NCBI RefSeq assembly: GCF_021372645.1
Contig: NZ_JAJFUC010000037.1
Coordinates: 1-64,000 of the forward strand
DNA from: Clostridium sp.
Lineage (GTDB): Bacteria > Bacillota > Clostridia > Clostridiales > Clostridiaceae
Reading direction: 5' to 3'
DNA length: 64,000 bases
This document shows positions 53,170 through 64,000 of this stretch, piece after piece. Below the pieces are notes generated by a model. It was not told the origin of the DNA. It searched no databases and worked only from the letters and a program-made list of their open reading frames with translations. Position 1 is the first letter of the stretch, and each line of letters begins with the position of its first letter. The translations under genes and the position numbers were made by a program.

Positions 53170-53218
53170 AAAATATAACGAACATAAACAAATATAAAAT
53201 TTATTACAATCATATTTT

Positions 53219-53298
53219 GGCAGCCTGACGATCATAGAAAATAAAATTTCCCTTAGACTCATGGTTTTGCGACCTTATTTTTCAATAAGTGTGCTATT
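53219..53298 (-). ncRNA. Cyclic-di-GMP class I (GEMM) riboswitch aptamer
   Basis: The minus strand reads AATAGCACACTTATT-GAAA-AATAAGGTCGCAAAACC, then ATGAGTCTAAGG ... CTATGATCGTC and AGGCTGCC. This is the class I layout: a hairpin capped by a GAAA tetraloop (CTTATT/AATAAG), the CGCAAA joining segment, and a second hairpin carrying the CTAAG/TATG tetraloop receptor, closed by GCTGCC. Compared with the usual clostridial GGGTCTAAGG ... ATAGCC, the GAG/GTC pair here is a covariation that keeps pairing. A TATAAT at 53328-53323 may be its promoter -10. By analogy with C. difficile Cd1, ligand binding would promote termination, but this is inference. Confidence 0.88.
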
Positions 53299-53530
53299 AT
53301 CATTTATAATTTACTCTTTTAAATTATAAAATATTCCAAAGGTTTTTGCCACAACTATTTTCTAATTTTCGATAAATTTTACATAATTATATTATAATAA
53401 GTTTGTTAAATTAGCATTACAATTACCAACATAGTCATATTTATAAGTTATATTTATACAATAATGTCATAACTTCTAACAAAATTAACTCAACATCTCC
53501 TTTTAAATATTTATACTTTAAATCTACAAA

Positions 53531-57307: not shown

Positions 57308-58363
57308 CTAATTCAACTGTGCTTTAAGCCCATTTCTTGCTGGTTCATAATCACCACACATACTATAATATTCTATAGCTTTTTCTCTAAAACCTAATAC
57401 ATTATATATAACTCCTATATTATAATAGGCACTATATGTAGTTATCCCTTCTACCTTACTATATGAAAATTTCGTACATTCTAAAAAACTTTTCACTGCC
57501 TGTGTAAATTTAGCATTATTCATATATATTAATCCCATAAGAAAGTGAAAATCAGAACATTTTGAGTAGATTTCAAGACAATTTTCTAAAATAAGAGCAT
57601 CTGAATATCTACCACTGTTAATTAGAGAATATCCGTAGGTCTCAACCAAATCCTCCACATATTCTAACTTAAAATCCAACTGAAAAGATAATGCCTTCTC
57701 AAAGTATTTGGTAGAAGTTTTATAATCTTTCAACATATAATAGGACTTACCTAGTTGAAAATAGAGATATGGATCTTCAGAATTATCTTTTACTGCTTGC
57801 TGCAGCAAATCTACATTCCTCTTAAGCTTATCTGTTCTACTTAATACTTCCTTTGTATAGCCTACATGATCCACAGTTATATCTATATTTTCTGTTTCAT
57901 AAACTTTACCATTTAAAGCTACAATCTGCTCATGAATTATTCCTTGATAATGAAAATAATGCTTATTAAAAAGTCTATTTACTCTCTCTACATATTTCTT
58001 AGTTTCATTTGAATCCTCCATTATGTTAATTCGTTGAATCCTTCCAACTTTATTTTGGTTTAAAGAATTATTTATAAATCCATATAAACTATCTCTTGAG
58101 AAATCTGTAATAAATTCATCTGCATCTAGTATAAGTATCCAATCGTTAGAAGACTTAGATATAGCGAAATTTCTTGCTTTTGAAAAATCATTACACCATT
58201 TAAAATCATAAATTTTATCAGTAAATTCTGATGCAATAATCTTTGTATTATCATTAGAACCTGTATCTACTACAATTATTTCATCTACGAAATTTGCCAC
58301 TTTAGATAAGCAATTTTCAAGACTTTCTTCTTCATTTTTAAGTATCATGCATAAAGTCAACAT
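57308..58363 (-). CDS. Glycosyltransferase family 2 protein with TPR repeats
   Basis: The first about 230 residues are a GT2-type transferase: LCMILKNEEESLENCL, DEIIVVDTGSNDNTK and the DxD-like ILDADEF. The C-terminal part has TPR-type helices (YFQLGKSYYMLKDYKTSTKYFEKAL, FHFLMGLIYMNNAKFTQAVKSF). The 351-residue protein has no membrane segment, so it is cytosolic. Position between two flagellin genes and next to a flagellin methylase suggests flagellin glycosylation, as in other clostridia. The donor sugar cannot be told. AGGAGG precedes the ATG, and the start overlaps a 29-codon frame. Confidence 0.88.
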   Translation of the reverse strand: MLTLCMILKNEEESLENCLSKVANFVDEIIVVDTGSNDNTKIIASEFTDKIYDFKWCNDFSKARNFAISKSSNDWILILDADEFITDFSRDSLYGFINNSLNQNKVGRIQRINIMEDSNETKKYVERVNRLFNKHYFHYQGIIHEQIVALNGKVYETENIDITVDHVGYTKEVLSRTDKLKRNVDLLQQAVKDNSEDPYLYFQLGKSYYMLKDYKTSTKYFEKALSFQLDFKLEYVEDLVETYGYSLINSGRYSDALILENCLEIYSKCSDFHFLMGLIYMNNAKFTQAVKSFLECTKFSYSKVEGITTYSAYYNIGVIYNVLGFREKAIEYYSMCGDYEPARNGLKAQLN

Positions 58364-59682: not shown

Positions 59683-60879
59683 TTACCTAACTAATATAGT
59701 TAAATATGCTAGTGTATCATATCCTGCCTCTTTTATGTTTTTATAAATTATCTCAATAAATTTTTCACTATGCTCTAGTACTCTAGAAAAAGAATATAAA
59801 ACATCTATAATATCTTCTTCTTTTAATAATTTATCACTTTTACTCCATCTAGCTATCAATAATACCTTTATCACAGAATAACTTAATATTAATCTCACAA
59901 TTTCTTTATTCAAATCTTTACTATATAATGCTTTCATATAATTATTATATAAGTTATAAACTATATAATTTTCTAAAATATACTCTTTTTCTTTAAAATA
60001 CTCATTAAATTCTTTTTCTTTATTTTCCAACAGCTCTAATACTTCATCTTCACTCTTTTCATTAACAAGAACATTAAAATCAAATAACAAACTAAAAAAA
60101 GTATTATTAGTTATACCAGAATTTGATCTTGCTTTAAGGAACGTACTTATAAATAAAAGTTTAACTTTATCAACTTTTTTAATTTCATCCAATGATTCTA
60201 TTATTCGCGAATCAATTACACTTTCTCTCAAACTATTAATTAAATTATCTGCTTGATCATATTCTGATGTATTTATTATATTTTGTATCTTTTCTTCAAC
60301 TAATTTTATAAATAAAAGTCTCTTCCAAATTTCTATTTCTCTGAATTGAGCAATTTCAATTGATAATGATCTCGCTTCCCATAATAAATTATATAGTTTA
60401 TTATTATATTTTTCTTCACTAATGTATTCTTTTTCAAAATCAGTTAATGGTTCATCATCCAAATTAAAACTAAATGGATTATTGAAACTACTAATAATTC
60501 TAGCAACCTCTGGACAGGATAGTGTTAAATACTTTTCATAAATCTCCCCGTATTTCCTCACCATTCTAGGATATATTTTACATGTATTACATAAATAATC
60601 TTTGCCTAAATTTATATACAATTCACAAAGATTATCTTCACTTAATAGTGGACATCTACTAGAATTTAGTTTCATTTTTCCATATGCCAAATCATTTAAA
60701 TCTTTTCTATTTCTTACAATATTCTTATTTAGACTTCTCCCAAAATCACCCTTGACCTTTTTGTATTTATTATAACTTTTCTTATCAATATGTACCGTCC
60801 AACCTATACAACAACTATCTTTACATTTATCAGCAATGCATTTAAAATCATCATAATAAAATGGCTTTAAAATTTTCAT
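59683..60879 (-). CDS. fliB: FliB-type flagellin lysine N-methylase
   Basis: FliB methylates lysines of flagellin in Salmonella, and homologues are common in clostridia. The 398-residue protein has the family's Cys-rich N-terminal part: CIADKCKDSCCIGWTVHI, CPLLSEDNLCELY, CNTCKIYPRMV and LSCPEVARI. These probably bind an iron-sulphur cluster or another metal. The rest is helical. Neighbouring flagellin, YjfB and glycosyltransferase genes support a role in filament modification. Gene name by homology only. Confidence 0.85.
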   Translation of the reverse strand: MKILKPFYYDDFKCIADKCKDSCCIGWTVHIDKKSYNKYKKVKGDFGRSLNKNIVRNRKDLNDLAYGKMKLNSSRCPLLSEDNLCELYINLGKDYLCNTCKIYPRMVRKYGEIYEKYLTLSCPEVARIISSFNNPFSFNLDDEPLTDFEKEYISEEKYNNKLYNLLWEARSLSIEIAQFREIEIWKRLLFIKLVEEKIQNIINTSEYDQADNLINSLRESVIDSRIIESLDEIKKVDKVKLLFISTFLKARSNSGITNNTFFSLLFDFNVLVNEKSEDEVLELLENKEKEFNEYFKEKEYILENYIVYNLYNNYMKALYSKDLNKEIVRLILSYSVIKVLLIARWSKSDKLLKEEDIIDVLYSFSRVLEHSEKFIEIIYKNIKEAGYDTLAYLTILVR

Positions 60880-61708: not shown

Positions 61709-61753
61709 TTATCTTAATAATTGAAGAACTTGTTGAGGTTGTTGATTTGCTTG
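61709..61753 (-). CDS. Second copy of the flagellin C-terminal coding sequence (3' exon)
   Basis: Fifteen codons read QANQQPQQVLQLLR and stop (TAA 61711-61709). This is the standard flagellin D0 end. It starts right after the predicted last G of the group I intron and has no start codon or ribosome site of its own. It makes sense only as a 3' exon joined by splicing, or as a remnant of the gene into which the intron first inserted. It differs from the upstream copy by one residue (NQ for NN) and by many silent bases. Confidence 0.8.
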   Translation of the reverse strand, partial: QANQQPQQVLQLLR

Positions 61754-62152
61754 CGTTTCATCAATGACCTTTCAATCATTGCCAGACTATATCTTCACCC
61801 GTTTTTAGTTGAAACTTCAGAATTGAGAGTTATATATTACCCAAACTTTCAATTTTCCACTTTCCACTATCAACTAATCCTCGGGGTTGGGCACTTCGGG
61901 AAACCTCATCCCTACGAGTTTCATCACCATGGCTACTCGCTTTAGGTGGTATACTCTAGTCGTTGAGCCTTCTCCAACTTTTCAGTCCAGGAGCTTGGCT
62001 GCTGATTATCCAATCCGTTTGCTTTTCAATCTATCACGTTTGTCTTTTCAAACTCCGCTGTAGAGAAACGGCTTAAGGAAGTTCCAGCAATTCACCCAAT
62101 GTGTGCTTAAAGATTACTCTTTAAGAGACCCTTAAATAATCAATTACCTAAG
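61754..62152 (-). ncRNA. Group I self-splicing intron in the flagellin gene (5' end at 62152 or 62188)
   Basis: On the minus strand all core elements appear in order. P2: CTTAAAG/CTTTAAG (62125-62119, 62112-62106). P3: TTGGGTG (62099-62093) with CACCTAA (61948-61942). P4: TGCTG (62089-62085) with CAGCA (62004-62000), in the P and Q elements AATTGCTGGAAC and AATCAGCAGCCAAGC. P6: CTCC/GGAG. R element CTCAACGACTAGA; P7: GACTA (61961-61957) with TAGTC (61789-61785) in the S element AAGATATAGTC. P8: GCGAGT/ACTCGT. P9: CAATGA/TCATTG. The last base is G 61754. There is no ORF inside. The 5' splice site is ambiguous: after GGCT at 62189 or after CTT at 62153. Group I introns in flagellin genes are known from Geobacillus. 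Confidence 0.9.
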
Positions 62153-64000
62153 AAGTTGTAACACTTGTTGAGGTTGATTATTTGCTTGAGCCAACATAGC
62201 TTGAGCAGCTTGAGAAAGAATATTATTCTTTGAGAATGTTGACATTTCTTTAGCCATATCAACGTCTCTAATTCTTGATTCAGCAGAAGTTAAGTTTTCT
62301 GATGAAGTTCCCAAGTTATTAATTGTGTGTTCTAATCTGTTTTGAGAAGCACCTAAGTCAGCTCTTTGGCCAGATACTGATTTTATAGCATTATCTATAA
62401 CCTTAATAGCTGCAGTTGCTTTATCATGATCTGATATATCAAGAGCATATTCTGTATTAGTACTAGTTGTTCCATTAGTTACTGTTGTATCTTTTGTAAA
62501 TGCTGCTCCTTCAGTACCTGCTGATGCTCCAGATATGTCTCCAGACACTCCAAGAGCTTTTGATCTCATATCTCCTATTGCAATTTCAAAACTTTGTCCT
62601 TGATTAGCTCCAATTTGTAAAGTAGCTTTAAATGTACCACCTGATGCATCTTGACCATCAGTGATTCCACCTAGTAATGTTGCTGCATAGTCTCCTGATA
62701 CCTTTAATGTTGGTGTAGCTCCATCTGTTGGAATTGCACCTGTTTGCATCTCAAATGATATTTTATCTGATGCTTGTGAAGCTTGAAGCTTAGATGTCAA
62801 GTCTACAGTATTTCCATCCTTATCTACAGCAGTTTTCAATGCTTCATTAAGTGATGCTGTTAAACCAACTATAGTATCAGCTGCTGCAAGACCACCAGCC
62901 ACTTTAATTGCAGCATCATTTAAAGTCACAGTGTAATTTGTACCATTTAAAGTAACATCAATTTTTTTACCTTGAGCTGTATCAGCATTTATTTTATCTG
63001 AATCAGTTCCAAAGGATGTTGTTGCTACAGTATTACCAGTAACTTTAGCTGCTGTTCCATCTTGACCTACAGATACAGATGTTCCTTTTGCAGTAGCTAA
63101 AACATCCCAAGTAGCGGAAGCACCAGCATCGTAGTTCATATTTCCAAATCCTAATTGAGCTAACTCAGCTGTTATATCTTTAGTAGTATCTACTTTTCCA
63201 GTTCCATCATTAGCATTTGATGCAAGTGTTAAGTTTTGATCAATACCAGTTCCCTTAGTAGCAAAACTTAGTTCTCCATTATCTTTTACAGTAACATTTA
63301 CCAAACTTCCCAATTTAACCAATCCACTATCATCAGTTAAATTTTCTAATGCTAACTGCATCCCTTCAGCTGTACCAGTTTTTCCAGCAAAATCTATTTC
63401 AGTGCCTGCAACCGTAACTTTTGTTCCACCTGCATATGCCGCTAATACATCTTTATTTGCTTTACCTACAGCGTCACTAAAATCAAATTTAATACCTTTT
63501 GCAATACCAGTTGTATCATCAATTCCTCCAACATATAATCCTAAATCAGCTAAGCCAGCTAATGAGAAAGTATTTGTTGTTTTTACTGCATCTGCATTAA
63601 TATTAGATACGACCGCTGCTTTAGCTCCAGTACCTGTAGCTTCATTACTACCAATTGCTAAAGTATTTGCTGATGCACCACCATTTAATAATTTTTGAGT
63701 ATTAAATTCAGTAGTATTACCTATTCTGTTAATTTCTGATGTTAATTGATTCATTTCTTTTTGTATTGCAGTTCTATCAGAACTAACATTAGTATCATTA
63801 GCTGATTGAGTAGCTAATTCTCTCATTCTTTGAAGAATTGAAGTAGTTTCATTTAATGCACCTTCAGCTGTTTGAATCATTGATATACCATCTTGAGCAT
63901 TAGCTGAAGCTGTATCAAGACCTCTTATTTGTCCCCTCATTTTTTCAGATATAGCTAATCCTGCTGCATCATCTGCTGCACTATTAATTCTAAGACCTGA
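62144..64000 (-). CDS. Large flagellin, 5' end beyond the window
   Basis: The frame is open to the window edge. The visible part starts SGLRINSAADDAAGLAISEK, the conserved D1 region, so only about 32 N-terminal residues are missing. D1 continues with GQIRGLDTASANAQDGISMIQTAEGALNE. A large Ala/Thr/Gly/Asp-rich variable region of about 400 residues follows (the surface-exposed D2/D3). The C-terminal D1/D0 has NRLEHTINNLGTSSENLTSAESRIRDVDMAKEM and ends AMLAQANNQPQQVLQLLR. With about 650 residues it is long for a flagellin. The stop codon is immediately upstream of, or inside, a group I intron that is followed by a second copy of the last 14 codons. Confidence 0.95.
   Translation of the reverse strand, partial: SGLRINSAADDAAGLAISEKMRGQIRGLDTASANAQDGISMIQTAEGALNETTSILQRMRELATQSANDTNVSSDRTAIQKEMNQLTSEINRIGNTTEFNTQKLLNGGASANTLAIGSNEATGTGAKAAVVSNINADAVKTTNTFSLAGLADLGLYVGGIDDTTGIAKGIKFDFSDAVGKANKDVLAAYAGGTKVTVAGTEIDFAGKTGTAEGMQLALENLTDDSGLVKLGSLVNVTVKDNGELSFATKGTGIDQNLTLASNANDGTGKVDTTKDITAELAQLGFGNMNYDAGASATWDVLATAKGTSVSVGQDGTAAKVTGNTVATTSFGTDSDKINADTAQGKKIDVTLNGTNYTVTLNDAAIKVAGGLAAADTIVGLTASLNEALKTAVDKDGNTVDLTSKLQASQASDKISFEMQTGAIPTDGATPTLKVSGDYAATLLGGITDGQDASGGTFKATLQIGANQGQSFEIAIGDMRSKALGVSGDISGASAGTEGAAFTKDTTVTNGTTSTNTEYALDISDHDKATAAIKVIDNAIKSVSGQRADLGASQNRLEHTINNLGTSSENLTSAESRIRDVDMAKEMSTFSKNNILSQAAQAMLAQANNQPQQVLQLLR

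Follow-up and report, generated by a model that had tools for sequence, protein, structure and literature searches.

A flagellin group I intron of Clostridium whose predicted 5' end carries a second copy of the interrupted C-terminus

Results

A group I intron near the 3' end of a flagellin gene

The window analysed here, a stretch of 64,000 nucleotides from a Clostridium sp. contig (NZ_JAJFUC010000037.1), ends inside a flagellin gene on its minus strand (Table 1). The product of exon 1 matches both flagellin families of Pfam (PF00669, Flagellin_N, 2.3e-39; PF00700, Flagellin_C, 4.4e-31), and the flagellin frame in the ORF list, read through without splicing, stops at 62144 with ...MLAQANNQPQQVLQLLR and a stop codon. 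An earlier sequence-only reading of this locus had paired a group I core by hand. When 801 bases were scanned with Infernal under permissive settings, RF00028 matched positions 61763-62148 of the minus strand over model positions 1-253 with 81.6 bits (cut-off 50, E 4.4e-21), which exceeds the curated cut-off over the whole core and confirms the proposed group I element; a Rfam scan of the whole window at gathering thresholds with fast filters did not list it. The folds also predict a U.G pair at the 5' splice site (GGCU/GGGUC), and the element has a terminal G. From this U.G pair, the terminal G, the reading frame and conservation in relatives, we infer an intron that splits the flagellin codons between MLA and QANQQPQQVLQLLR plus stop, giving a predicted spliced-exon junction of GGCT^CAAGCAAATC. 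Codons for the flagellin C-terminus were found on both sides of the core, as had been noted earlier, with the second copy directly behind the terminal G; we refer to the first copy as the mimic.

Table 1. Features of the flagellin locus and its surroundings in the window (^, predicted splice junction)
Feature	Position	Strand	Basis or remark
Flagellin exon 1	62189..64000	-	ORF; runs past window edge; ends ATG TTG GCT (MLA)
Group I intron, 435 nt	61754..62188	-	RF00028; borders GGCU^CAAGC ... AAACG^CAAGC
Mimic: in-frame QANNQPQQVLQLLR plus stop, first 45 nt of intron	62144..62188	-	Predicted 5' strand and loop of P1 extension
Segment after mimic stop, pairing with mimic bases 6-15 (AAATAATCAA/TTGATTATTT)	62134..62143	-	MFE folds, helix search, permutation test
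Internal guide GGGTC	62127..62131	-	Pairs with exon end GGCU and first intron base C; folds, register by eye
Exon 2: QANQQPQQVLQLLR plus stop (stop codon 61711-61709), ordinary flagellin C-terminus	61709..61753	-	Resembles intronless flagellins
Terminator-like hairpin, then five T, 3' of exon 2	about 61598-61567	-	Folding
CxxCxxCC-domain protein, downstream of flagellin gene	59683-60879		Below cut-off; may be a flagellin lysine methylase
Stand-alone LAGLIDADG homing endonuclease gene, 286 aa	58637-59497	+	PF03161, 2.7e-26; convergent to flagellin
Glycosyltransferase, downstream of flagellin gene	57308-58363	-	
Second flagellin-like gene	54340-53618	-	Extent of match
c-di-GMP-I riboswitch aptamer	53216-53305	-	72.3 bits; just past end of second flagellin-like gene

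The sequence-only reading had placed the first copy before the intron. With the 5' splice site after the mimic stop codon, the first copy would be the real flagellin end, with the intron in the 3' untranslated region and with exon 2 as an untranslated relic; such a layout agrees with an RF00028 match that begins at 62148, the end of the first copy, and with a first copy that by itself gives a full flagellin. However, the internal guide pairs with the GGCU upstream of the first copy. Both copies also begin with CAAGC, the mimic at the first intron base and exon 2 right behind the terminal G, each of them in frame (MLA followed by Q). Given the guide pairing with its U.G pair and these in-frame starts, the first copy most likely forms the 5' end of the intron itself, with the 5' splice site between 62189 and 62188. 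The guide type in relatives was compared with exon base -4. By eye, P1 proper is short (three pairs plus a C-G pair past the junction in most Bacillales, and five pairs in all in Clostridium), and a convincing P10 was not definable in the intron. RNA folds of the region beat shuffled sequences modestly (z -1.3, 9/100 shuffles as stable for the whole element; z -2.0, 8/200 for a fold of its 5' end), and the whole-element minimum free energy is not a strong argument for an intron.

Downstream of exon 2, the terminator-like hairpin has a predicted stability of -17.1 kcal/mol, which none of 200 shuffles equalled, and is absent from the output of a consensus terminator scan. Since this hairpin lies 3' of exon 2, transcription should cross both C-terminus copies, in keeping with the earlier expectation. 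Apart from the flagellin frame, a single ORF of 60 aa or more overlaps the intron, an antisense frame of 74 aa; the intron contains no nuclease reading frame, and the homing endonuclease gene lies outside it, downstream and convergent. Insertion of an IStron or another IS element was considered and rejected, as the 435-nt intron has no room for an IS605-type transposase ORF. BLASTN searches of phages and plasmids returned similarity to core elements only, covering at most 36% of the query among the matches listed. Compared with its closest relative (L003, 358 nt), the window intron has 77 nt more, in the form of an AT-rich insert in the P8 loop (about 61801-61882, minus strand); L081 has a similar-looking insert elsewhere in the intron.

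The same layout recurs widely in Bacillota

A DNA search of 68 congeneric genomes gave matches at E <= 0.001 in 13, namely the window's own genome and G004, G010 and G047 with long matches and the same layout, and nine with short core pieces. RF00028 is present in 28 of these 68 congeners, and among 30 intron loci examined (L146-L175) a flagellin end was found only in the same four genomes. Beyond the genus, a pattern made of the intron end plus QANQQP was searched in named genomes and returned at least 117 stretches; the 123 matches considered below come from 117 listed stretches and the four congeneric loci, the latter found without the pattern. The pattern fixes exon 2 as QANQQP, and residues 1-6 of exon 2 are therefore no evidence in the 117 stretches.

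By script, 104 of the 123 matches listed were found to have, within the 900 nt upstream, an in-frame copy ending in a stop codon. Three of the 104 were dropped: L121 and L122, in which the apparent mimic is a neighbouring gene's exon 2 and an intron core is missing, and L046, a duplicate of L024. From the 123 we set aside four chance matches in Enterobacteria (L035, L045, L048, L063), nine loci cut too close, ending within 302 nt of exon 2 (L028, L031, L053, L070, L093, L099, L112, L118, L138), and the duplicate, leaving 109 testable matches. The mimic layout is present in 101 of these 109 among those listed, widely in Bacillota, one of the 101 (a copy in L134) sitting in a decaying gene. The eight others comprise L041, whose mimic has internal stops, L094, an ordinary intron without a mimic, four rearranged loci without a copy (L033, L055, L067, L123), and L121 and L122. 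The last intron base is G in 100 of the 101 mimic loci listed. An identical layout recurring at this frequency is not due to chance.

With an intron of Peribacillus cavernae (L090) as DNA query, matches were obtained in 127 of 299 genomes from the order to which G462 belongs, a genome with a 93% identical intron, and in 20 of 398 genomes across the phylum; both counts take in introns at other insertion sites as well as short matches to the core. Two introns are present in several Bacillales flagellins (L061, L074, L077, L102, L105, L210), where one precedes MAKEMM and the other sits at the C-terminus.

The mimic is predicted to pair with a segment just before the guide

A helix search showed complementarity between mimic bases about 4-15 and the bases that follow the mimic stop codon and directly precede the guide. 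The mimic/partner pairs are AAATAATCAA/TTGATTATTT in the window, AAATTCTCA/TGAGAATTT in L025, GCGAATAG/CTATTCGC in L135 and GCAAATAACCAGC/GTTGGTTATTTGC in L049. Duplexes between each mimic and its own partner average -6.53 kcal/mol, compared with -5.08 (sd 0.15) when partners are permuted, and none of 2000 permutations was as low; exon 2 against the same partner segment gives -4.11 kcal/mol. Swapping partners among identical mimic peptides gives a mean of -5.51, relatedness being only partly controlled in the permutation test, and some single loci pair poorly (about -3 kcal/mol). The test used 100 distinct pairs from 102 of the 104 rows listed, which may still include the false mimic L122; L121 and one L134 match were lost for want of a guide. 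The mimic thus co-varies with its RNA partner segment, and it probably forms part of the ribozyme as the predicted 5' strand of a P1 extension. That the first copy co-varies with intron bases argues against an intron confined to the 3' untranslated region.

Both copies look selected as protein

Mimic and exon 2 of the same locus were compared over codons 7-14 in 97 distinct loci among those listed, leaving out L121, L122, L046, both L134 matches (decaying), and L106 and L119 (exon 2 cut). The comparison yielded 438 synonymous and 13 non-synonymous differences at a DNA identity of 72%. In 93 of the 97 loci listed, the two copies match at residue 8 as well as at residue 14 (permutation mean 65.8, maximum 74), and lineage-specific residues are tracked by both copies, such as Q, A or S for the G before VLQLL and a final G or Q for R. 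Mimic and exon 2 therefore both look selected as protein. Exon 2 lies behind the mimic stop codon and about 300 nt of ribozyme and should be reachable only by splicing, and selection on its codons implies that it is indeed reached in this way. Similarly, selection on the mimic codons implies that the unspliced message is translated to a useful product.

These data also bear on the untranslated-relic explanation introduced above, because an exon 2 that keeps its protein sequence while synonymous sites drift, and that tracks the lineage-specific residues of the first copy, is not expected of a relic. A further point against it comes from intron-free genes. Clostridium C-termini without an intron core directly behind them read QANQQP (21/26) or QANQAP (5/26), with Q as residue 4 in 26/26, which is the exon 2 form, whereas QANN, QANT, QANN and QANS begin the mimics of the window and its three congeners. 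Taken together with the guide pairing and the co-variation, these observations make a relic exon 2 behind a 3' untranslated intron quite improbable.

Because the intronless Clostridium C-termini carry the exon 2 form at residue 4, exon 2 probably represents the original end, to which the mimic was added. The argument is weaker in Bacillales, where the pattern fixed exon 2 as QANQQP and intronless C-termini read QANQQP in only 18/28 (QANQLP in 6, others in 4; residue 2 is A in 27/28, against S in the commonest mimic, QSNQMP). Intronless C-termini were read at L181-L209 (29 loci) and L251-L280 (30 loci), and only where they fitted the search expression. The best solved-structure match, 5wjt, a flagellin that we take to be that of B. 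subtilis, ends QANQQPQNVLQLLR, also QANQQP.

Copies that are alike as protein could also reflect a recent duplication kept alike by gene conversion, with a functionless first copy. By contrast to what conversion would produce, nucleotide identity is low and synonymous changes predominate. In a tree of 168 intron cores, moreover, one split (support 0.93) unites 114 of 116 mimic introns with three unclassified ones, and this suggests a design that is old and has been retained. We consider recent duplication with conversion very improbable indeed. Two mimic introns of Anoxybacillus (L049, L059) fall across that split, with introns of two other flagellin positions (site A and after ML, see below), possibly through a second origin or recombination.

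The sequence-only reading had further suggested that the insertion may allow two filament proteins. This holds in a trivial sense, the two predicted proteins of the window differing by one residue (N/Q), but not as diversification, since the last eight residues differ in only 13 codons across the 97 loci, which points to redundancy. A host device in which regulated splicing switches the cell between two isoforms of flagellin, comparable to that of the surface-layer gene of C. tetani, would fit two isoforms that both appear selected, Bacillales copies that often differ at residues 2 and 5 (QSNQMP, the commonest Bacillales mimic and 38 of the 97 mimics listed, versus QANQQP), and a temperature role that has been proposed for flagellin introns in thermophiles, as cited in PMC4853749. 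Nevertheless, the distribution is patchy (4/68 congeners) and linked to a homing nuclease, and we rank an isoform switch low because the isoforms are nearly identical; it appears unlikely, though less so than the two alternatives above.

A convergent LAGLIDADG gene accompanies the intron

The endonuclease gene in the window scores 92.9 bits against LAGLIDADG_2 (PF03161; cut-off 25), and its product is similar to I-SceI chains (E 1.9e-6). It lies 2.2 kb from the intron locus with other genes between. At E <= 1e-10 it occurs in 4 of the 68 congeneric genomes, exactly the four with the mimic intron, and is broken in G004. With tblastn (E <= 1e-3), homologues were found in 42 of the 123 matches listed (41 distinct, L046 repeating L024); all 42 lie downstream of exon 2 and face the flagellin gene, and in 24 the match ends within 130 nt of the exon 2 start. 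Of 78 listed mimic matches with at least 1.5 kb of downstream sequence, 51 had no detectable homologue within 2.5 kb, which would suit a decaying homing cycle. The gene is a probable mobility partner of the intron. In collaborative homing, the stand-alone nuclease F-CphI reportedly acts with an intron lacking its own nuclease gene. The window similarly combines a free-standing nuclease gene with a nearby group I intron that is ORF-less; it differs in the LAGLIDADG family, the cellular flagellin gene and the convergent orientation, and the evidence here consists of linkage and co-occurrence. The C-terminus of the window endonuclease (residues 219-285) matches the phage regulator family phrog_323 as an appended domain.

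Sister introns end the unspliced frame in degron-like tails

Other Bacillota flagellin introns sit after RDVD (site A) or after ML (as in L094). In these sister introns the unspliced frame soon ends, with -AA and a stop codon in 52 of 55 distinct cases and with YALAA in 33; the three other endings are VLSVA, YALAV and YALVA. The last codon is GCT in 20, GCA in 14, GCC in 13, GCG in 7 and GTA in 1, and in the ML group the last alanine codon appears, by eye, in a hairpin loop. The count covers loci L210-L250 and the Bacillota among L026-L142 (for example L210 minus, L094, L213 and L220), leaves out L041 and L248, and includes cases related by descent. Prediction of tmRNA in eight Bacillota genomes gave tags in six: ANENYALAA, ANDNYALAA, GKSNNNFALAA, AEDNFAIAA (two genomes, including the window's own) and ANDNLAYAA. 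The -AA tails resemble these tags and may possibly represent an intron-encoded degron.

In phage contigs (viral loci L281-L515), we considered frames of 100 or more codons that terminate right in front of an intron-core motif, a motif that alone does not prove an intron. These frames end in -AA in 9/66 and 5/32 distinct cases, compared with 12/1032 for other frames, of 150 or more codons, from the first contig set (Fisher 1e-6 and 9e-5). A usable frame was lacking for 58/130 core matches in the first of the two scans and for 87/137 in the second.

Discussion

We put a probability of about 0.8 on the reading that a mobile group I intron, inserted between the A and Q codons of the flagellin C-terminus, has been made safe against failed splicing by carrying, as its own 5' end, a second and independently maintained copy of the interrupted 14 residues and stop codon. 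At the RNA level, the first bases of the mimic would pair just before the guide, extend P1 and hold the splice site at GGCU^C. Ribosomes that arrive at the junction before splicing, or where splicing fails, would read the mimic, stop and release a complete flagellin, and exon 2 would give the ordinary C-terminus once the intron is removed. A flagellin complete either way would keep the heavy translation of this gene from clashing with the folding of the intron. The earlier idea that the insertion is harmless if unspliced should hold on this account, the unspliced frame ending in its own C-terminus copy and stop codon. As to spread, the downstream LAGLIDADG endonuclease would probably cut intronless flagellin genes, into which intron, exon 2 and endonuclease gene would be copied.

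Flagellin group I introns are already known. Hayakawa and Ishizuka (2009, 2012; as cited in PMC3984707 and PMC4853749) reported self-splicing of such introns from thermophilic Bacillus/Geobacillus, and another flagellin intron was assigned to IA2 in PMC4853749. Like the window intron, those of Hayakawa and Ishizuka are group I introns in a Bacillota flagellin gene; unlike it, they are cited without a duplicated C-terminus, and their splicing was suggested to promote motility. We found neither a duplicated C-terminus inside a flagellin intron nor a degron-like tail in open-access full text, where the work of Hayakawa and Ishizuka is represented by citing papers, and a prior description is possible; the accessible part of a LAGLIDADG preprint (PMC13405050) has no occurrence of 'flagell'. 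As far as the sources cover them, the nearest ideas are a C. tetani group II intron and fungal C-terminal duplications. In the former (C.te.I1 of the surface-layer gene, PMC3919590), unspliced and spliced messages both encode proteins, and the 5' splice site is shifted upstream, as in the window; however, C.te.I1 makes distinct isoforms at one locus, whereas the present design involves a group I intron and near-identical isoforms at about a hundred loci among those listed. In the latter (PMC3630166), LAGLIDADG mobile ORFs of fungal mitochondria (GIY-YIG in one gene) likewise bring an in-frame host C-terminus, and the copies diverge mainly synonymously. In the fungal genes the spare end is a direct fusion, and in two of the four the native end that it displaces was not expressed, whereas in the window the spare end lies within a ribozyme and splicing would join exon 2 back on.

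Reports of group I introns in bacterial protein genes are rare, and transcription-translation coupling is thought to be one reason (PMC3984707). We lean, with clearly less confidence than for the window locus, towards a broader proposal in which introns of bacterial protein genes carry a built-in answer to translation before splicing. The window class would encode a working copy of the missing protein end, and the sister introns of the two other flagellin sites, along with a fraction of the introns in phages, would encode an ssrA-like degron that leads to destruction of the truncated protein; the first intron codons would then act as a protein signal under selection, superimposed on the P1 extension.

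The mimic design is a widespread solution visible from sequence alone, in which one RNA stretch serves as both a predicted ribozyme structure and a selected spare protein end. Since exon 2 is apparently readable only after splicing, codon-level selection on it provides indirect evidence of splicing in nature at about a hundred loci among those listed. The contrast with the degron-like sister introns would offer a direct and cheap test of how mobile introns survive in highly expressed genes.
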